Source of the DNA: Desulfobacteraceae bacterium
GTDB taxonomy: Bacteria; Desulfobacterota; Desulfobacteria; Desulfobacterales; JAABRJ01
DNA length: 54,216 bases
Assembly (NCBI GenBank): GCA_022340425.1
Contig: JAJDNY010000061.1
Coordinates: 1-54,216 of the forward strand
Direction: 5' to 3'
Shown here: positions 41,770 to 49,213 of the stretch, in pieces
How positions within the stretch are numbered: position 1 is the first letter of the stretch
How the letters are laid out: each line of letters starts with the position of its first letter
Translations under genes and position numbers: made by a program
The notes under the pieces: generated by a model
Database searches by the model: none
The model's input: the letters and a program-made list of their open reading frames with translations, nothing else
Told to the model about the DNA's origin: nothing

Positions 41770-41939
41770 CCGCGCAGCCTTTTTTTATCACGACCCCTGC
41801 AGCCCCGCGCAGCCGCCGGCACGCGGGTTTCCAGCGGCCCGGCAAGGGGCTTCATCTTAAAGATTTCGCTTGACCAAATCAACAATACAATTTAAAAGGC
41901 CACTTTTCAAATAAATCACATTCAGGCATTGTGGCGCGC

Positions 41940-42581
41940 ATGGGCATCCAGGAGAGAAAAGAGCGGGAGCGGGAAAGACGCCGCCAGCAGATCATCGTGG
42001 CGGCCAAACGGGTGTTTTCGGAAAAAGGGTTCAGCCGGGCGACCATGGAGGATATCGCCAAGGCGGCGGAGTTGAGCCCGGGAACGCTCTACCTCTATTT
42101 CAAGAACAAGGACGAACTCTATGCCTCGCTTTCCATCCGGATCCTGCACTACCTTTTGATCCGCCTGGAGCACGTCGCCAAAGAGGCCAGCACCGACCTG
42201 GAGGCCCGCATGGCGAGTCTCAAAAAGGCCCTGCTGGATGTCTACGATTTCGATCCCCTGATGATCATCAACATGTTCCACCTGCAGTCCAGCGAAACCC
42301 TGCGCAACCTGTCGCTGGATCTTATGGCGGAAATCGAGGCCCTGTCGCGCAAATCCCTCGGCACCATGGCCCGGATCTTGGAAATGGGCATCCGCGAAGG
42401 CGTTTTCATCGACCGCCATCCCGTCGCCTTGGCCGATATCCTGTGGGCCCTTTTCTCTGGGGTTATCCTCTGGGAGGAGAGCAAGAAGGTCATCAATGCC
42501 GAAAAGGACTTCGTCCGCCCCACCTTCGAGCTGGCCTTTGATATCTTCGCCCGGGGCCTGCGGGCACCTCAACGGCACTAA
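41940..42581 (+). CDS. TetR/AcrR family regulator
   Basis: 213 residues. The basic lead GIQERKERERERRRQQIIVA runs into the HTH (KRVFSEKGFSRATMEDIAKA, ELSPGTLYLYFKNKDELY). The C-terminal domain resembles regulators of lipid or efflux genes but its ligand is not recognisable. The ATG at 41940 gives the usual N-terminus of this subgroup; a GTG nine bases earlier is also possible. Neither has a strong ribosome site. It ends against the convergent HAD-AIRS gene with a four-base overlap (42578-42581). No operator copy of the fatty-acid type is found near it, so its target is different. Confidence 0.82.
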   Translation: MGIQERKERERERRRQQIIVAAKRVFSEKGFSRATMEDIAKAAELSPGTLYLYFKNKDELYASLSIRILHYLLIRLEHVAKEASTDLEARMASLKKALLDVYDFDPLMIINMFHLQSSETLRNLSLDLMAEIEALSRKSLGTMARILEMGIREGVFIDRHPVALADILWALFSGVILWEESKKVINAEKDFVRPTFELAFDIFARGLRAPQRH

Positions 42582-44194
42582 AAGAGCCGGGTTATCTCAT
42601 CGACTTCGAAACACGGCCAGGAAACCGGCCGCCCGTCATAAAGCGCCTCGATTCCCTCGCCGGCCGCCAGCACCTCCCCGATAACGGCCACTGCAACGCC
42701 GGCCGAGCGGATGGCCGCCGCCAGGCCATCGGCGGCCGCGGCGGCGCAGGTGATTAGAAGGCTGCCGGAGCCGATCAGCCCCAGCGGGTTGAGCCCCAGG
42801 AGATCGGTCAGCTTGCGGGTTTCGGGCAATATCGGGATCCGCTCCATGTCCACCCGGATGCGATGCCCGCCCGCCTCCCCCAGTTCCTTGAGCGCTGCCG
42901 CCAGCCCCCCCTCGGTGACGTCGTGCATGGCGCTGACCCCCGGCGTGTCGGCGGCGATGCGGGCTTCGGTGATGATGCTGATCTGCTCCAGAAACTGCCG
43001 GCAGGCCTCGATTTCATCGGCGCCCACGCCCAGCGCCGCCAGCCGCCGCCCGAACTCGCGGGCGATGATGGCGGTGCCTTCCACCGCAACACCCTTGGTG
43101 AGCAGCACCTGGTCGCCGGGGGCCATGTTGCGTTTGTCCACCAGCGCGGCGCACGCGACGGTGCCGGCCAGCATCCCGATCACCACCGGGCGGGTGACCG
43201 CATCGGTGATTTCGGTGTGCCCGCCGCAAAGCGTGATCCCCCAACGCTGGCAGGTGGCCCGCAGCTCGTTCATCACCCGCCAGATTTCGGCGCCGGTGAC
43301 CCCCCGCGGAAACAACAGGGTGGTCAGCAGCCAGCGCGGCACGGCCCCAGAGGTGGCAATGTCGTTGGCGTTGACAACCACCGCATACTGGCCGATGGCA
43401 TCGGTGGCGAAGGTGATCGGATCGGATTTCAGCACCAGCACCTCATCGGAGGTCACGTCCACCGCGGCCGTGTCCTCACCGACGCCCGGTTTGACGATCA
43501 TGGCGGGATCCTCGAAGGGCAGCTGGGTGAAAAAGGCCCGCAAAAGGGCGTTGGGCAGCTTACCGCAGGGCAGCACGCGCCCCATGCCCAGGATCGGCAT
43601 CAGTTCCCCGAGGCTTGCGATGGTGAAGTCGCTCTGCAGGCGAATGGCCGCGGAATGCTCGCGGTTGTCCAGGAAAACGGTCACGGCTCCGGCCCGCTGA
43701 CCGGCCTCCACGTCGAACACATAATCCCCCACCATCAGGATTTCCTGGGGCGCCACGGCCAGCGTCCGGGCCGCCAGCAGAATGCCGTCGGCACTGGGTT
43801 TGGGGCGCACAGGAGCATCGCGGGAAACGATCAGGTCGAAATCCGTCACGCCGAGCCCGCTGAAATTCTCCAGCGCACGGGCCACCGAGCGGGCGCAGTT
43901 GCGGGTCACGATGCCCACCTTGAGGCCCCGCCGGCGCAGCTCACGCAGGATCTGCTCGGCCTCGGGGTTGGGCAGCGAGCGTGCGGCGGCCGCCATCTCG
44001 AAGCACTCCAGATCAGCGGCGGCGGCCTCACGCTGGCCGCCGACCGGCAGAGCCTCGAGAAACTCGAGCACCGGCATGTCGGCCGGGCAGCCGATGGCCG
44101 CCTTGAAGGTGCCAAAATCCAGGGCACCGGGCAGGGTCAGGGTGCCGTCAAAATCAAAGAGTACCGCCCGGATCACAAAGGGGATCGGGATCAT
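42578..44194 (-). CDS. HAD phosphatase fused to a PurM/AIRS-like domain
   Basis: 538 residues. The N-terminal HAD part (1-200) has motif I DFDGTLT (14-20), motif II VTRN (97-100), Lys in RPKPSADGI (K132) and motif IV VGDYVFDVEAG (155-165). The C-terminal part (about 207-538) is a HypE/SelD/ThiL-type AIR synthase fold: GVGEDTAAVDV, LKSDPITFATDAIGQYAVVV, NANDIATSGA, LCGGHTEITDAV, AMHDVTEGGLAAAL. It lacks the HypE C-terminal PRxC tail, so it is not a hydrogenase maturation HypE. The joint activity (ATP-dependent phosphorylation paired with phosphate removal) is unknown. The ATG at 44194 follows GGAAAG; it lies 73 bases after lysA. Confidence 0.82.
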   Translation of the reverse strand: MIPIPFVIRAVLFDFDGTLTLPGALDFGTFKAAIGCPADMPVLEFLEALPVGGQREAAAADLECFEMAAAARSLPNPEAEQILRELRRRGLKVGIVTRNCARSVARALENFSGLGVTDFDLIVSRDAPVRPKPSADGILLAARTLAVAPQEILMVGDYVFDVEAGQRAGAVTVFLDNREHSAAIRLQSDFTIASLGELMPILGMGRVLPCGKLPNALLRAFFTQLPFEDPAMIVKPGVGEDTAAVDVTSDEVLVLKSDPITFATDAIGQYAVVVNANDIATSGAVPRWLLTTLLFPRGVTGAEIWRVMNELRATCQRWGITLCGGHTEITDAVTRPVVIGMLAGTVACAALVDKRNMAPGDQVLLTKGVAVEGTAIIAREFGRRLAALGVGADEIEACRQFLEQISIITEARIAADTPGVSAMHDVTEGGLAAALKELGEAGGHRIRVDMERIPILPETRKLTDLLGLNPLGLIGSGSLLITCAAAAADGLAAAIRSAGVAVAVIGEVLAAGEGIEALYDGRPVSWPCFEVDEITRLF

Positions 44195-44267: not shown

Positions 44268-45536
44268 TCACCCGGCGCCGGGCCGCAAGACCCTGGGCGC
44301 AAAGGTCAGGGTCGCGAAATAATCCGCCGGCGTCTCCTCCCGCCGTATCAGTTCCACCGTGCCGTCGCTACGTAGCAGCAGTTCCTTGGGACGCAGCTTG
44401 CCGTTGTAGTTGAAGCCCATGGAATGCCCGTGCGCACCGGTATCCTGAATCAGCAGCAGATCCCCGGGAACGATGTCCGGCAGCGGGCGCTGGACAGCGA
44501 ACTTGTCGTTGTTCTCGCACAGCGATCCCACCACATCCACCACCCGCTCGTTTTTACCCTGGGGTTTGCCCACGACCTCGATGTGGTGGTAGGCGCCGTA
44601 CATTCCCGGGCGCATCAGTGCCGACATGCAGGCGTCCACGCCGATATAGCGCCGGTAAATGTTCTTTTCATTGATGGCGGTGGTCACCAGAACCCCGTGG
44701 GGCCCGGTCACGTAGCGCCCGCTTTCGAGAAAGAGCTTGGGCTGATACCCGTGCTGGTCTTCAAAGGCCGCCAGCAGGGCCGTGATCTGAAGCCCCATCC
44801 CGGCGAGGTCCAGGGGTGTTTCTTCAGGCCGGTAGGGTATCCCCAGGCCGCCGCCGATGTTGATGAACTCGAAGACAATCCCCAGTTCGGCGCTGATGCG
44901 CTCCACCTCTTGGAGCAGCATACGGGTGGTTTCCACCATATAATCCGCCTGAAGTTCGTTGGAAACCAGCATCGTGTGGAGCCCGAAGCGGCGGGCGCCG
45001 CGCTCCCGCGCCAATCGGTAGGCATCCACCAGCTGTTCGTGACTGACCCCGTACTTGGCCTCTTCGGGCTTGCCAATGATCGCGTTGCCGCCCCGACGGG
45101 GGCCGGGGTTGTAGCGAAAACAGATCAGTTCGGGCATCTGCGGGACCTTGGGCACCAGAGTGATGTCGTCCAGGTTGAGCAGGCAGCCGCCCTCGGCCGC
45201 GGCCAGTTGGAACTCCTCGCGGGTGGTGTTGTTGGAGGTGAACATGATCTCCTCACCCCGGGCGCCCACATCCCGGCTGAGGGTCAACTCGGTGCTCGAA
45301 CTGCAGTCGAAACCGAAACCGACTTGGCGGATCAGCGCCAGCACCGCAGGGTTGGGCAGCGCCTTGACGGCGTAATATTCTTGGAAAAAGCTTGCCCCGG
45401 CAAAGGCCTTTTTGAGGGTCTGACAGGTGTTTAGGATTCCCTTTTCGTCGTAGATGTGAAACGGGGTGCCGAAGAAATCGACGATCTTCGCCAGCCGAGG
45501 GGTCAGGCGGTTTTTGAAATCAGCGGACATGGGCAT
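44268..45536 (-). CDS. lysA: Diaminopimelate decarboxylase family protein
   Basis: 422 residues of fold III PLP decarboxylases. PLP Lys is K58 in YYAVKALPNP. Phosphate-loop FINIGGGLGIPYRPEE, ESGRYVTGPHG and the intersubunit Cys region VGSLCENNDKFA (usually CESxD) are present. It most likely decarboxylates meso-diaminopimelate to lysine, though related enzymes act on other D-amino acids. The ATG at 45536 follows AGGAGG with nine-base spacing. It lies downstream of the Lrp gene across a hairpin-rich gap, so lysine- or Lrp-dependent control is plausible. Confidence 0.85.
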   Translation of the reverse strand: MPMSADFKNRLTPRLAKIVDFFGTPFHIYDEKGILNTCQTLKKAFAGASFFQEYYAVKALPNPAVLALIRQVGFGFDCSSSTELTLSRDVGARGEEIMFTSNNTTREEFQLAAAEGGCLLNLDDITLVPKVPQMPELICFRYNPGPRRGGNAIIGKPEEAKYGVSHEQLVDAYRLARERGARRFGLHTMLVSNELQADYMVETTRMLLQEVERISAELGIVFEFINIGGGLGIPYRPEETPLDLAGMGLQITALLAAFEDQHGYQPKLFLESGRYVTGPHGVLVTTAINEKNIYRRYIGVDACMSALMRPGMYGAYHHIEVVGKPQGKNERVVDVVGSLCENNDKFAVQRPLPDIVPGDLLLIQDTGAHGHSMGFNYNGKLRPKELLLRSDGTVELIRREETPADYFATLTFAPRVLRPGAG

Positions 45537-45577
45537 GGGGCGGTACCTCCTGGCGGGTGCCAAAGGGCGGCGATGAG

Positions 45578-45672: not shown

Positions 45673-46134
45673 TTAAGCCGGGGCTTCCGGCGGAATCTGA
45701 AAGGTTTCCTTGTAGGTGGTCAGGGCGATGCGGGTGCGGGTGGCGCCAATACCTTCCAGCGGGGCGATCTGCTCCCGCAGGACCTGCCCCAGCTCGCGGG
45801 TCCCGCCGACCCGCAGCTTGAGAAAAAAGCCGTCCTCGCCTGAAAGGTAATGGACTTCCTGGACCGCCGGGATGGCCGCCAGGCGACGGCCAAGGGCGTC
45901 GTCGCCGCCGGGGCGGGCGCTGCCCACCGAGACGAATGCCACCATTTCGCGGCCGAAGCGCGCCGGGTTCAGGCGCACCTCGTAGCCGTCGATGATCCCC
46001 AGCTTCTCCAACTTGCGGATGCGCTCCAGCACGGCCGAGGGTGCCATGCCCACCTTGCGTGCGACCTCCACGTTGGGGATGCGGGCCTTTTTCTGCAAGA
46101 TCCGGATAATCTGAAGACTAATTTCGTCAATCAT
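45673..46134 (-). CDS. Lrp/AsnC family transcriptional regulator
   Basis: 153 residues. The HTH is at 1-55 (ISLQIIRILQKKARIPNVEV, APSAVLERIRKLEKLGII). The RAM/ligand domain follows (VAFVSVGSARPGG, VQEVHYLSGEDGFFLKLRV, TRIALTTYKE). Such proteins bind amino acids and regulate their metabolism. The adjacent lysA suggests a lysine or other amino-acid role. A palindrome TTTACGTAAA (46196-46205) and an AT-rich stretch with TTGACA upstream fit an autoregulated promoter. Confidence 0.9.
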   Translation of the reverse strand: MIDEISLQIIRILQKKARIPNVEVARKVGMAPSAVLERIRKLEKLGIIDGYEVRLNPARFGREMVAFVSVGSARPGGDDALGRRLAAIPAVQEVHYLSGEDGFFLKLRVGGTRELGQVLREQIAPLEGIGATRTRIALTTYKETFQIPPEAPA

Positions 46135-47509: not shown

Positions 47510-49213
47510 ATGTACCTGGCCTACTACAACCTCAGCGCCAAGCCGTTTCAGATCAGCACCGACCCGGCCTTCCTGTGGCTGGGCCCCAAACACCGCGAAG
47601 CCCTGTCCACCCTGAGATACGGGGTGATGGACAACCGCGGTTTTCTGCTGCTGACCGGGGATGTCGGCACCGGCAAGACAACCCTGATTCATGCGCTGCT
47701 CAAAAGCCTCTCCCAGGAGGTGGTGGCGGCCAGCGTGCCGGACCCCGGGCTGTCACCACTGGACTTTTTCAACTATATCTCGCGGGGGTTTCATTTCGGC
47801 ACGCGCTTCGCCTCCAAAGGCGATTTTTTGGATCATTTCATCGATTTTCTGGAAAGATCGCATGCGGCCCACAAAAAGGTACTGCTGATCATCGACGAGT
47901 CCCAGCGCCTGACCTCCGAACTGCTGGAGGAAATCCGGCTGCTGTCCAATATCGAGAAGTACGAAAACAAGCTGCTCAACATTTTTTTTGTGGGCCAAAA
48001 CGAATTCAATCAGTTTCTGATGCTGCCGGAACACAAAGCCATCCGTCAGCGGATCACCATCAACTATCACATCACCCCGTTAACCGAAATCGAAACCGGG
48101 GCCTACGTCCGCCATCGGCTCAAGGTGGCCGGCGCCCGGATGGAGATCTTCGATGAGGGCGGCATCGGCGAGGTCTTTCGTTTTTCCAGCGGCTACCCCC
48201 GGCTGATCAACATCATTTGCGACCATGCGCTGCTTTCCGGGTTTATCAAAAGCGCGGAGGTCGTGACGGCGGCGATTGTGAGCGACTGCGCCGCCGATCT
48301 GACCCTGCCGCAACGCGACGTTCTGCAAGCCGAGATCGCCAAGACCGAGCGGCCGGAGCCCCCCCTGCCGGCCGCCGTGCGGGAGTCGGGCCCGGCCGCA
48401 CCAGCCCCGCAGCGAAACCGCTGGCAGCGTTCCGCCCTGCTGGTGGCGCTTCTCGCAGCGCTGCTGCTGGGCCTTTTCGGGCTTTACCCCCAGGGCTTCG
48501 AACGCCTGAAGACATTGTGGCACAGCCAGTTTCAGGGGATGACGGCCGGCACCGGGGCCCCCCCGCCGACCCAAGTCGCCCCGGAACCGCCCCCCCCGGC
48601 TGGGGCGCCCGGCACCCCGCCGCTTCCCTCCCCGAAACCGCCGGCGACACCCGCCCCGGAAACCCCAAAGCCTCCGGCCGCAACAGCCGCCGCGCCACAA
48701 ACCGCAACTCCTTTGAAGCCGGTTGCAGCAACGCCACCCGCCGAGCCCGTTTCAGCGACACCCGCAGCGCCCGCCGAAACCGCCGCCGGCACCCCGCCGG
48801 TTTCCCCCGTGAAACCTCCGGCGACGCCCACTCCGAAGACCCCAAAGCCGCCGGCCGCAACAGCCGCCGCTCCCCAAACCGCAGCCCCCCGGAAGCCGGT
48901 TGCAGCACCCCCACCCGCCGAGACCGTTACAGCGGCACCCGCAGCGCCCGCCGAAACCGCCGCCGGCACCCCGGCACCCGACGGAGACCCGGATAAACCG
49001 CTGCCGACTGTCCCGATGGAACCGCAGCCTCCGCCCGCTGGGCTCGAAGACCAGCGAGGCGCGCAAAATTTCGAACAAAAAGACGCACGAAAGCCGCTTC
49101 CGGCCAAGGCTGCAACCGAGGAGCTGCGGCAAGAAGACGCCGACGCCGACGCCGGTTCGGATCCGGGGGACATCATTGATTGGGTGCTGGAAAAAAACAA
49201 ACGGCGGCAATAG
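47510..49213 (+). CDS. ExeA-like AAA ATPase with Pro/Ala repeat tail
   Basis: 567 residues. An AAA domain of the ExeA/GspA type (MYLAYYNLSAKPF, Walker A GDVGTGKT at 50-57, VLLIIDESQRL, SGYPRLINIICDHALL) is followed by a membrane helix (about 306-326) and a long Pro/Ala/Thr-rich tail. The tail contains a 59-residue tandem repeat. It is a paralogue of the MshM-like protein at 11226 but has no SPOR domain. The tail would lie in the periplasm and may span to the wall. The link to a secretion or pilus system cannot be shown from neighbours. Confidence 0.8.
   Translation: MYLAYYNLSAKPFQISTDPAFLWLGPKHREALSTLRYGVMDNRGFLLLTGDVGTGKTTLIHALLKSLSQEVVAASVPDPGLSPLDFFNYISRGFHFGTRFASKGDFLDHFIDFLERSHAAHKKVLLIIDESQRLTSELLEEIRLLSNIEKYENKLLNIFFVGQNEFNQFLMLPEHKAIRQRITINYHITPLTEIETGAYVRHRLKVAGARMEIFDEGGIGEVFRFSSGYPRLINIICDHALLSGFIKSAEVVTAAIVSDCAADLTLPQRDVLQAEIAKTERPEPPLPAAVRESGPAAPAPQRNRWQRSALLVALLAALLLGLFGLYPQGFERLKTLWHSQFQGMTAGTGAPPPTQVAPEPPPPAGAPGTPPLPSPKPPATPAPETPKPPAATAAAPQTATPLKPVAATPPAEPVSATPAAPAETAAGTPPVSPVKPPATPTPKTPKPPAATAAAPQTAAPRKPVAAPPPAETVTAAPAAPAETAAGTPAPDGDPDKPLPTVPMEPQPPPAGLEDQRGAQNFEQKDARKPLPAKAATEELRQEDADADAGSDPGDIIDWVLEKNKRRQ
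48635..48974 (+). repeat. 177-bp tandem coding repeat (about two copies)
   Basis: Unit 1 runs 48635-48811 and unit 2 begins at 48812, encoding KPPATPxPxTPKPPAATAAA and following residues twice, with about 80% identity by eye. It lies in the periplasmic tail of the ExeA-like protein and keeps the frame. Confidence 0.8.

Follow-up and report, generated by a model that had tools for sequence, protein, structure and literature searches.

A gene in the window, i.e., the whole stretch of 54,216 nucleotides of Desulfobacteraceae DNA that was analysed, encodes a HAD-IA phosphatase domain and a complete AIRS (PurM) superfamily domain in one chain. The fusion is real, conserved, and widespread, being neither an artefact nor private to the source genome. 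It is encoded in 45 of the 96 genomes searched, that of the window included, which excludes chance as its source. The explanation tentatively preferred here is a bifunctional enzyme, of which the AIRS half would phosphorylate or activate a small metabolite with ATP and the tethered HAD half would serve as an accessory phosphatase acting on the same or a linked phosphometabolite. To our knowledge, few reactions of the AIRS superfamily have been characterised, and the HAD-AIRS architecture offers a way into an orphan branch of this superfamily. Moreover, a natural fusion names the activity of its partner, and thereby narrows the search for the substrate to a small phosphorylated compound. Literature searches, to which subscription papers were mostly out of reach, yielded no description of a HAD-AIRS fusion.

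Domain composition of the fusion protein

Translation of the fusion gene gave an uninterrupted frame of 538 residues from its ATG (Table 1). The preliminary description had reported complete HAD and AIRS motifs in one chain, and this was borne out by the presence of the motifs that it named and by Pfam scores above cut-off for both halves. The HAD half matched Hydrolase (PF00702; 73.8 bits, cut-off 26.4) and HAD_2 (68.1 bits, cut-off 23.8), and passed the NCBIfam model of the HAD-IA group (TIGR01509; 36.7 bits, cut-off 29.4), with the residues of HAD-IA motifs I to IV all present (DFDGT at 14-18, T97, K132, D157, and D161). The AIRS half matched AIRS (62.0 bits, cut-off 24) and AIRS_C (67.7 bits, cut-off 23.1), which places it in the AIRS (PurM) superfamily, and it contains G239/D241, D258, N277-D278, GGHTE (324-328), and HDVTEGG (424-430). 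One paper gives DX4GAXP as the ATP motif of the PurM superfamily and PR(I/V)C as the C-terminal motif of HypE (PMC4506123). The former, as worded there, is found in the AIRS half as D278-IATS-GA-V-P286. The named ATP-site positions, D278 included, were identical in 54 of 54 aligned sequences (44 fused, including the query, and 10 standalone). A G-K pair lies close to the AIRS start in 50 of 51 family rows, and a tail resembling DE-x3-[LI]-F closes the family rows shown, L203 being among the exceptions.

Table 1. Coordinates of the fusion gene, its domains, and adjacent genes in the window
Feature	Position	Strand	Remarks
HAD-AIRS fusion gene	42578..44194	-	538 aa + stop; ATG at 44194, stop TAG 42578-42580
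HAD-IA phosphatase domain	43580..44173	-	residues ~8-205; D14, D16, T97, K132, D157, D161 intact
AIRS/PurM-fold ATP-dependent domain (predicted)	42581..43582	-	residues 205-538; G211-K212, D241, D258, N277-D278, GGHTE, HDVTEGG, C-terminal DExxxLF tail
LysA-type decarboxylase gene	44268..45563	-	directly upstream of the fusion, same strand; PF02784, PF00278; lineage-specific context
Lrp/AsnC-type regulator	45673..46134	-	upstream of lysA; context
TetR-type regulator	41931..42581	+	convergent with the fusion gene; the two stop codons overlap

An AlphaFold2 model built from the 54-row alignment had a mean pLDDT of 93.2 and a pTM of 0.85. The structure matches (VIA-align) lay mostly over the AIRS half, for which HypE ranked first (3wjp; Z 36.9, 2.4 A over 317 residues), followed by selenophosphate synthetase (Z 30.0), ThiL (Z 29.6), and PurM (Z 26.9); the HAD half reached a Z of ~23 with phosphoglycolate-phosphatase-like chains. 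The nearest solved sequence relative of the HAD half, and the known system that it resembles best, is the HAD-IA hydrolase 2ybd/3m9l (E 1.1e-22 by sequence, 6.5e-27 by profile), a chain of 205 aa that differs from the fusion in having no AIRS domain. The literature search found no paper that names either of these two entries as a structure.

Taken with the fold and the ATP-site residues, as seen in sequence and model, the AIRS half is predicted to be an ATP-binding member of a broad group within the AIRS (PurM) superfamily, and it most likely phosphorylates or ATP-activates a small metabolite, as ThiL, SelD, and HypE do. Kinase and dehydratase chemistry look alike by sequence; the G-K pair corresponds in the alignment to the Lys in the loop of SelD, and the chemistry of the AIRS half therefore leans weakly towards a kinase-like one. 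The HAD half, in which the motifs are observed, would be a HAD-IA phosphomonoesterase that probably dephosphorylates the same or a closely linked phosphometabolite, in an accessory, recycling, or clean-up role rather than as an obligatory next step.

Relation of the AIRS half to known AIRS enzymes

Among the best 25 of 52 NCBIfam models compared with the fusion, the nearest curated AIRS-type family was HypE (TIGR02124), which scored 117.1 bits, i.e., less than half of its cut-off of 251.6. ThiL (TIGR01379; 85.8 bits, cut-off 184.15) and SelD (TIGR00476; 75.7 bits, cut-off 125) stayed below their cut-offs as well, and PurM (TIGR00878; cut-off 236.35) was absent from these best 25 models, the top score being 117 bits. 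The genome of the window holds seven AIRS-domain matches in six genes, the fusion included, and encodes separate enzymes that pass their own models, namely SelD (359.5 bits), ThiL (295.8 bits), PurM (427.7 bits), and HypE (444 bits); the fifth other gene contains two AIRS domains and is PurL-like by eye. No NCBIfam model was matched at cut-off by any of five standalone AIRS members scanned, and none of six group members scanned (the fusion and standalone genes) reached the cut-off of an AIRS-type model. Judged by these comparisons, the AIRS half is none of the known AIRS enzymes.

The nearest fold (Z 36.9), the nearest curated family, and the DX4GAXP motif are shared with HypE, and would be in line with a HypE-like carbamoyl dehydratase that serves hydrogenase maturation or another nitrile-forming route. 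The occurrence of HypD in 40 of the 45 fusion genomes versus 26 of the 51 others points in the same direction (Fisher p 6e-5, kinship ignored). However, the unrelated marker CdhC was associated with the fusion as well, albeit more weakly (41 of 45 versus 34 of 51, p 0.006, kinship ignored), and lineage may thus explain the HypD association; in addition, five fusion genomes, three of which are at least 92% complete, have no HypD match. The HypD co-occurrence is accordingly not taken as evidence of a role with hydrogenases, although it alone among the results leans towards one. Furthermore, a true HypE adjoins HypD on contig C129 of the window's own genome, and the fusion differs from HypE in its joined HAD half and in having neither the GSGG loop nor the PR(I/V)C tail. 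The absence of a HypE tail had been noticed in the preliminary description and was confirmed: the protein ends in DEITRLF, and the HypE proteins of its own genome and of E. coli end in PRIC. A HypE-like role is considered very improbable.

A Cys or Sec residue in the N-terminal loop is a trait of SelD. In the alignment, neither the query nor the family rows shown have a counterpart of this residue, which argues against the fusion being a redundant paralogue of thiamine-phosphate kinase or selenophosphate synthetase, as do the scores below both cut-offs and the presence of separate ThiL and SelD genes in the same genome. Such a paralogue would agree with the 85.8 and 75.7 bits scored against the two models, the AIRS fold shared with both enzymes (Z ~30), the GGH motif shared with SelD, and the alignment of the family G-K with the Lys in the N-terminal loop of SelD, but it is held to be hardly likely at all. 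A literature search on the SelD residues gave nothing. As a separate observation, the SelD gene of the window's own genome (L001:919-2001, minus strand, contig C8) has an in-frame stop in the N-terminal loop (GAG*ASK) at the position of the E. coli SelD Cys, a pattern as in selenocysteine-containing SelD, for which it is a candidate.

Distribution and separability of the two halves

Matches at E 1e-20 were obtained in 55 of the 96 genomes, comprising 45 with fusion-type matches over the AIRS half, six with the HAD alone (G006, G012, G019, G045, G077, and G080), one with a contig-edge fragment (G034), and three with only HypE-like matches. Forty of the 45 fusion matches align from residue 1-8; of the other five, one is cut by a contig end (G075) and four align only from residue 64-87 (G031, G054, G088, and G090). 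Among named genomes, at least 585 stretches encode a relative, and the best 80 of these were kept as the locus set, which consists of 60 fused genes or pieces of them, one HAD-only gene, and 19 standalone AIRS genes. Within these best 80 loci, the fused type carries labels of Desulfobacterales and other deltaproteobacteria, Actinomycetota/Thermoleophilia, and Acidobacteriota, mostly from metagenome-assembled genomes in which contamination is possible; Desulfonema magnum and Desulfatitalea alkaliphila also carry the fused type.

The AIRS group as a whole extends over Desulfobacterales, Actinomycetota, Acidobacteriota, Poribacteria, Lachnospiraceae, a cyanobacterium, and archaea. In a wider phylum sample 70 of 297 genomes gave a match, mostly to standalone AIRS genes at 27-48% identity, and matches were found in 17 of 40 genomes from the family of one Lachnospiraceae genome, the weakest of which may be other AIRS enzymes. 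Standalone relatives on Haloferax and Acaryochloris plasmids are annotated as 'AIR synthase family protein', and genes similar to these occur in Lachnospiraceae, Poribacteria, and others. The proteins of this name have no HAD half. In most rows seen they share 35-48% identity with the AIRS half, and, apart from a few exceptions, they have the same ATP-site residues, the GK motif, and the DE tail. The existence of separate HAD and AIRS genes of known role in relatives had been named in advance as an outcome that could explain the fusion away; such separate genes do exist, but no role was found for the standalone genes that would account for the fusion.

In the 60 fused-type loci among the best 80 of at least 585, the six-position HAD site (D14, D16, T/S97, K132, D157, and D161) is intact in 45 and damaged in 10, and in the other five it is truncated by a contig end; one of these five (L076) also looks damaged in its HAD. 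At 16 AIRS-site positions, 58 of the same 60 loci are identical to the query, the exceptions being L091, which is cut and starts after the Lys, and L093, which has lost its frame in the AIRS half through an assembly error or as a pseudogene. The first alignment, with 38 intact HADs out of 44, did not include 17 of the 60 fused-type loci, and in several of these 17 the HAD is short or damaged; in the six damaged rows of this alignment D14, K132, D157, and D161 are all replaced, D16 is replaced in five, and T/S97 is kept, and the HADs of these six rows form one clade (98). Several HAD-site positions are also missing from each of L127 (G031), L128 (G054), and L129 (G088). Inactivated motifs, the other outcome foreseen as adverse, are thus absent from the query itself but present in the HAD site of 10 of the 60 fused-type loci of this set. 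Ten genomes in which the HAD is damaged or unrecognisable were searched for a close HAD relative elsewhere, and none was found; the best matches outside the fusion gene scored 25-41 bits, compared with 29 bits for a generic HAD in the window's own genome, and a short frame in G438 (35% identical) is the least clear of them. The lineages with a damaged HAD provide a natural control for the task of each half.

The preliminary description had proposed consecutive steps on one metabolite or a proofreading design. Conservation of the fusion in a single chain in 45 of 96 genomes, the second HAD-AIRS linkage described below, and the presence of two intact sites in 45 of the 60 fused-type loci among the best 80 of at least 585 (less L093, with its broken AIRS frame) are consistent with two interdependent activities that act with substrate channelling. 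Nevertheless, the HAD decays in 10 of these 60 loci, and in L127 and L129, with the AIRS site kept and no close HAD to replace it in the 10 genomes searched, and the HAD occurs without a fused AIRS half in six of 96 genomes, among which only G080 has another AIRS-family match (E 1e-20); an obligatory cascade and proofreading are therefore weakened. Moreover, among the 24 loci L135 to L158, a set to which L134 does not belong, L135 is a second fusion and a separate HAD match lies within ~1.5 kb of the AIRS gene only in L143, L152, and L156. Obligatory coupling of the two steps is thus rather unlikely, even though the conservation and recurrence of the link stood up.

The same decay of the HAD next to an unchanged AIRS site, together with the widespread AIRS relatives without a HAD, would fit an AIRS half that works alone, with the HAD as a tethered bystander or a structural or regulatory cap that is decaying in some lineages. 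However, once the loci cut by a contig end are set aside, 45 of the remaining 55 (within the best 80 of at least 585) have an intact HAD site, a pattern that speaks for selection on catalysis. HAD-only genes with motifs that are intact by eye also persist, and the linkage recurs. A HAD without catalytic task is regarded as unlikely, and the bifunctional enzyme with an accessory phosphatase is retained as the preferred reading.

Evolution of the linkage and gene neighbourhoods

The AIRS part was placed in a quick tree of 59 rows that gave long-branch warnings. The 21 fused AIRS halves in it form one clade (SH-aLRT 99), the PurM, ThiL, and SelD rows fall outside this family, and HypE sits on a long branch in an unresolved fork with several standalone rows. 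This phylogeny had been suggested at the outset, as had an architecture search, which showed the conserved fusion and a second linkage of the two families. In this second linkage the HAD and AIRS genes are separate neighbours in G105, G145, and G180 and are joined in a fusion of their own in G365. The HAD and AIRS genes overlap by 4 bases in L152, abut in L143 with a DUF763 gene in front, and are separated by a gap in L156, where the HAD lies upstream of the AIRS gene and a member of a DUF763-like cluster lies in front; L135 encodes the separate fusion, of 564 aa. The HADs of the four second-link loci form one clade (99), and their AIRS partners form one clade (91) outside the main fusion clade. 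In a quick HAD tree with long-branch warnings and only four outside HADs (E. coli Gph and three others), the second-link HADs group with those of the main fusion and with two from plasmids (96), and the four comparison HADs stay separate. They appear related to the fusion HADs as members of the same HAD subgroup, on the basis of this quick tree and of 28-37% identity. The HAD and AIRS families are thus linked in at least two groups, and the two linkages may either descend from a single HAD-AIRS operon or have arisen twice.

A broader interpretation is possible but doubtful, namely that the group represents a further AIRS class beside PurM, PurL, ThiL, SelD, and HypE, whose members would act throughout bacteria and archaea on a cellular metabolite, as a kinase or an ATP-dependent dehydratase. 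The HAD would complete a kinase/phosphatase cycle on this metabolite; fusion would have brought the two together on two or more occasions, and decay of the HAD would have freed the AIRS half again in some lineages.

The HAD-only genes were suggested as fission products because they are placed among the fused HADs in the tree and share neighbours with the fusion (an MFS gene before L118 and L120, TetR beside L119). Such an origin is not claimed, since the fused HADs as one clade were not rejected (AU p 0.198). The DUF763 gene that precedes the HAD-AIRS pair (L143:3207-4328, minus strand) occurs in two genera of one family, assigned by Pfam in L143 and by cluster in L156.

In the window, lysA is separated from the fusion gene by 73 bases. 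Six neighbours were scanned, encoding a glutamate-synthase-domain protein, a GAF-ANTAR protein, and TetR on one side, and LysA, Lrp/AsnC, and an NMT1-like protein on the other. None of these six is a hydrogenase, selenium, thiamine, or purine gene, in agreement with what had been remarked from the sequence. The position of the fusion gene behind lysA, also remarked upon, holds for this locus but does not generalise: the immediate neighbours at the 60 fused-type loci (best 80 of at least 585) include TetR at 13, B12-radical SAM at seven, LysA at five, MEMO at three, MFS at two, and ABC at one, as counted from rough clusters (blastp on simple ORF calls, at most one member of each Pfam-scanned, contig ends counted uncorrected). 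TetR is the commonest neighbour cluster, no neighbour is general, and the lysA link is local. Genomic context was rejected as a guide to the pathway because the neighbours differ between lineages.

Neighbours of the standalone AIRS genes include aldehyde ferredoxin oxidoreductase (AOR), FolE2 with PTPS, DUF763, VanW, Lrp, and aminotransferase. PTPS and FolE2 (GTP cyclohydrolase) lie directly upstream of the standalone AIRS gene in L158 (2495-3680, minus strand) and L151, with FolE2 overlapping, in two genomes of one family; this adjacency is a pterin lead for the AIRS substrate. In eight loci (L137-L142, L144, and L145) the standalone AIRS gene is preceded by a member of the AOR cluster, identified by Pfam for L138 only. 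In five of these eight, a gene that by eye resembles a molybdopterin-type oxidoreductase lies behind the AIRS gene, in most cases with a small protein in between, which in L138 had no Pfam match. In the Lachnospiraceae-type loci L191-L202, an Lrp-type regulator and then a class I aminotransferase follow the standalone AIRS gene in seven of 12 (by eye), and a VanW gene often precedes AIRS genes of this type, VanW and the aminotransferase being identified by Pfam for L109. A MEMO gene lies just before the fusion in L018, L026, L044, L071, and L092 (by Pfam for L026), some of which may be one genome represented twice, and in L153, L155, and L157 the standalone AIRS gene is followed by a radical SAM gene that is AmmeMemoRadiSam-like by eye; co-occurrence with Memo is uninformative, as 92 of the 96 genomes have it. 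Finally, an AAA ATPase gene at 47510-49213 of the window (plus strand) encodes a product whose second half has long Pro/Ala-rich, partly repeated segments.
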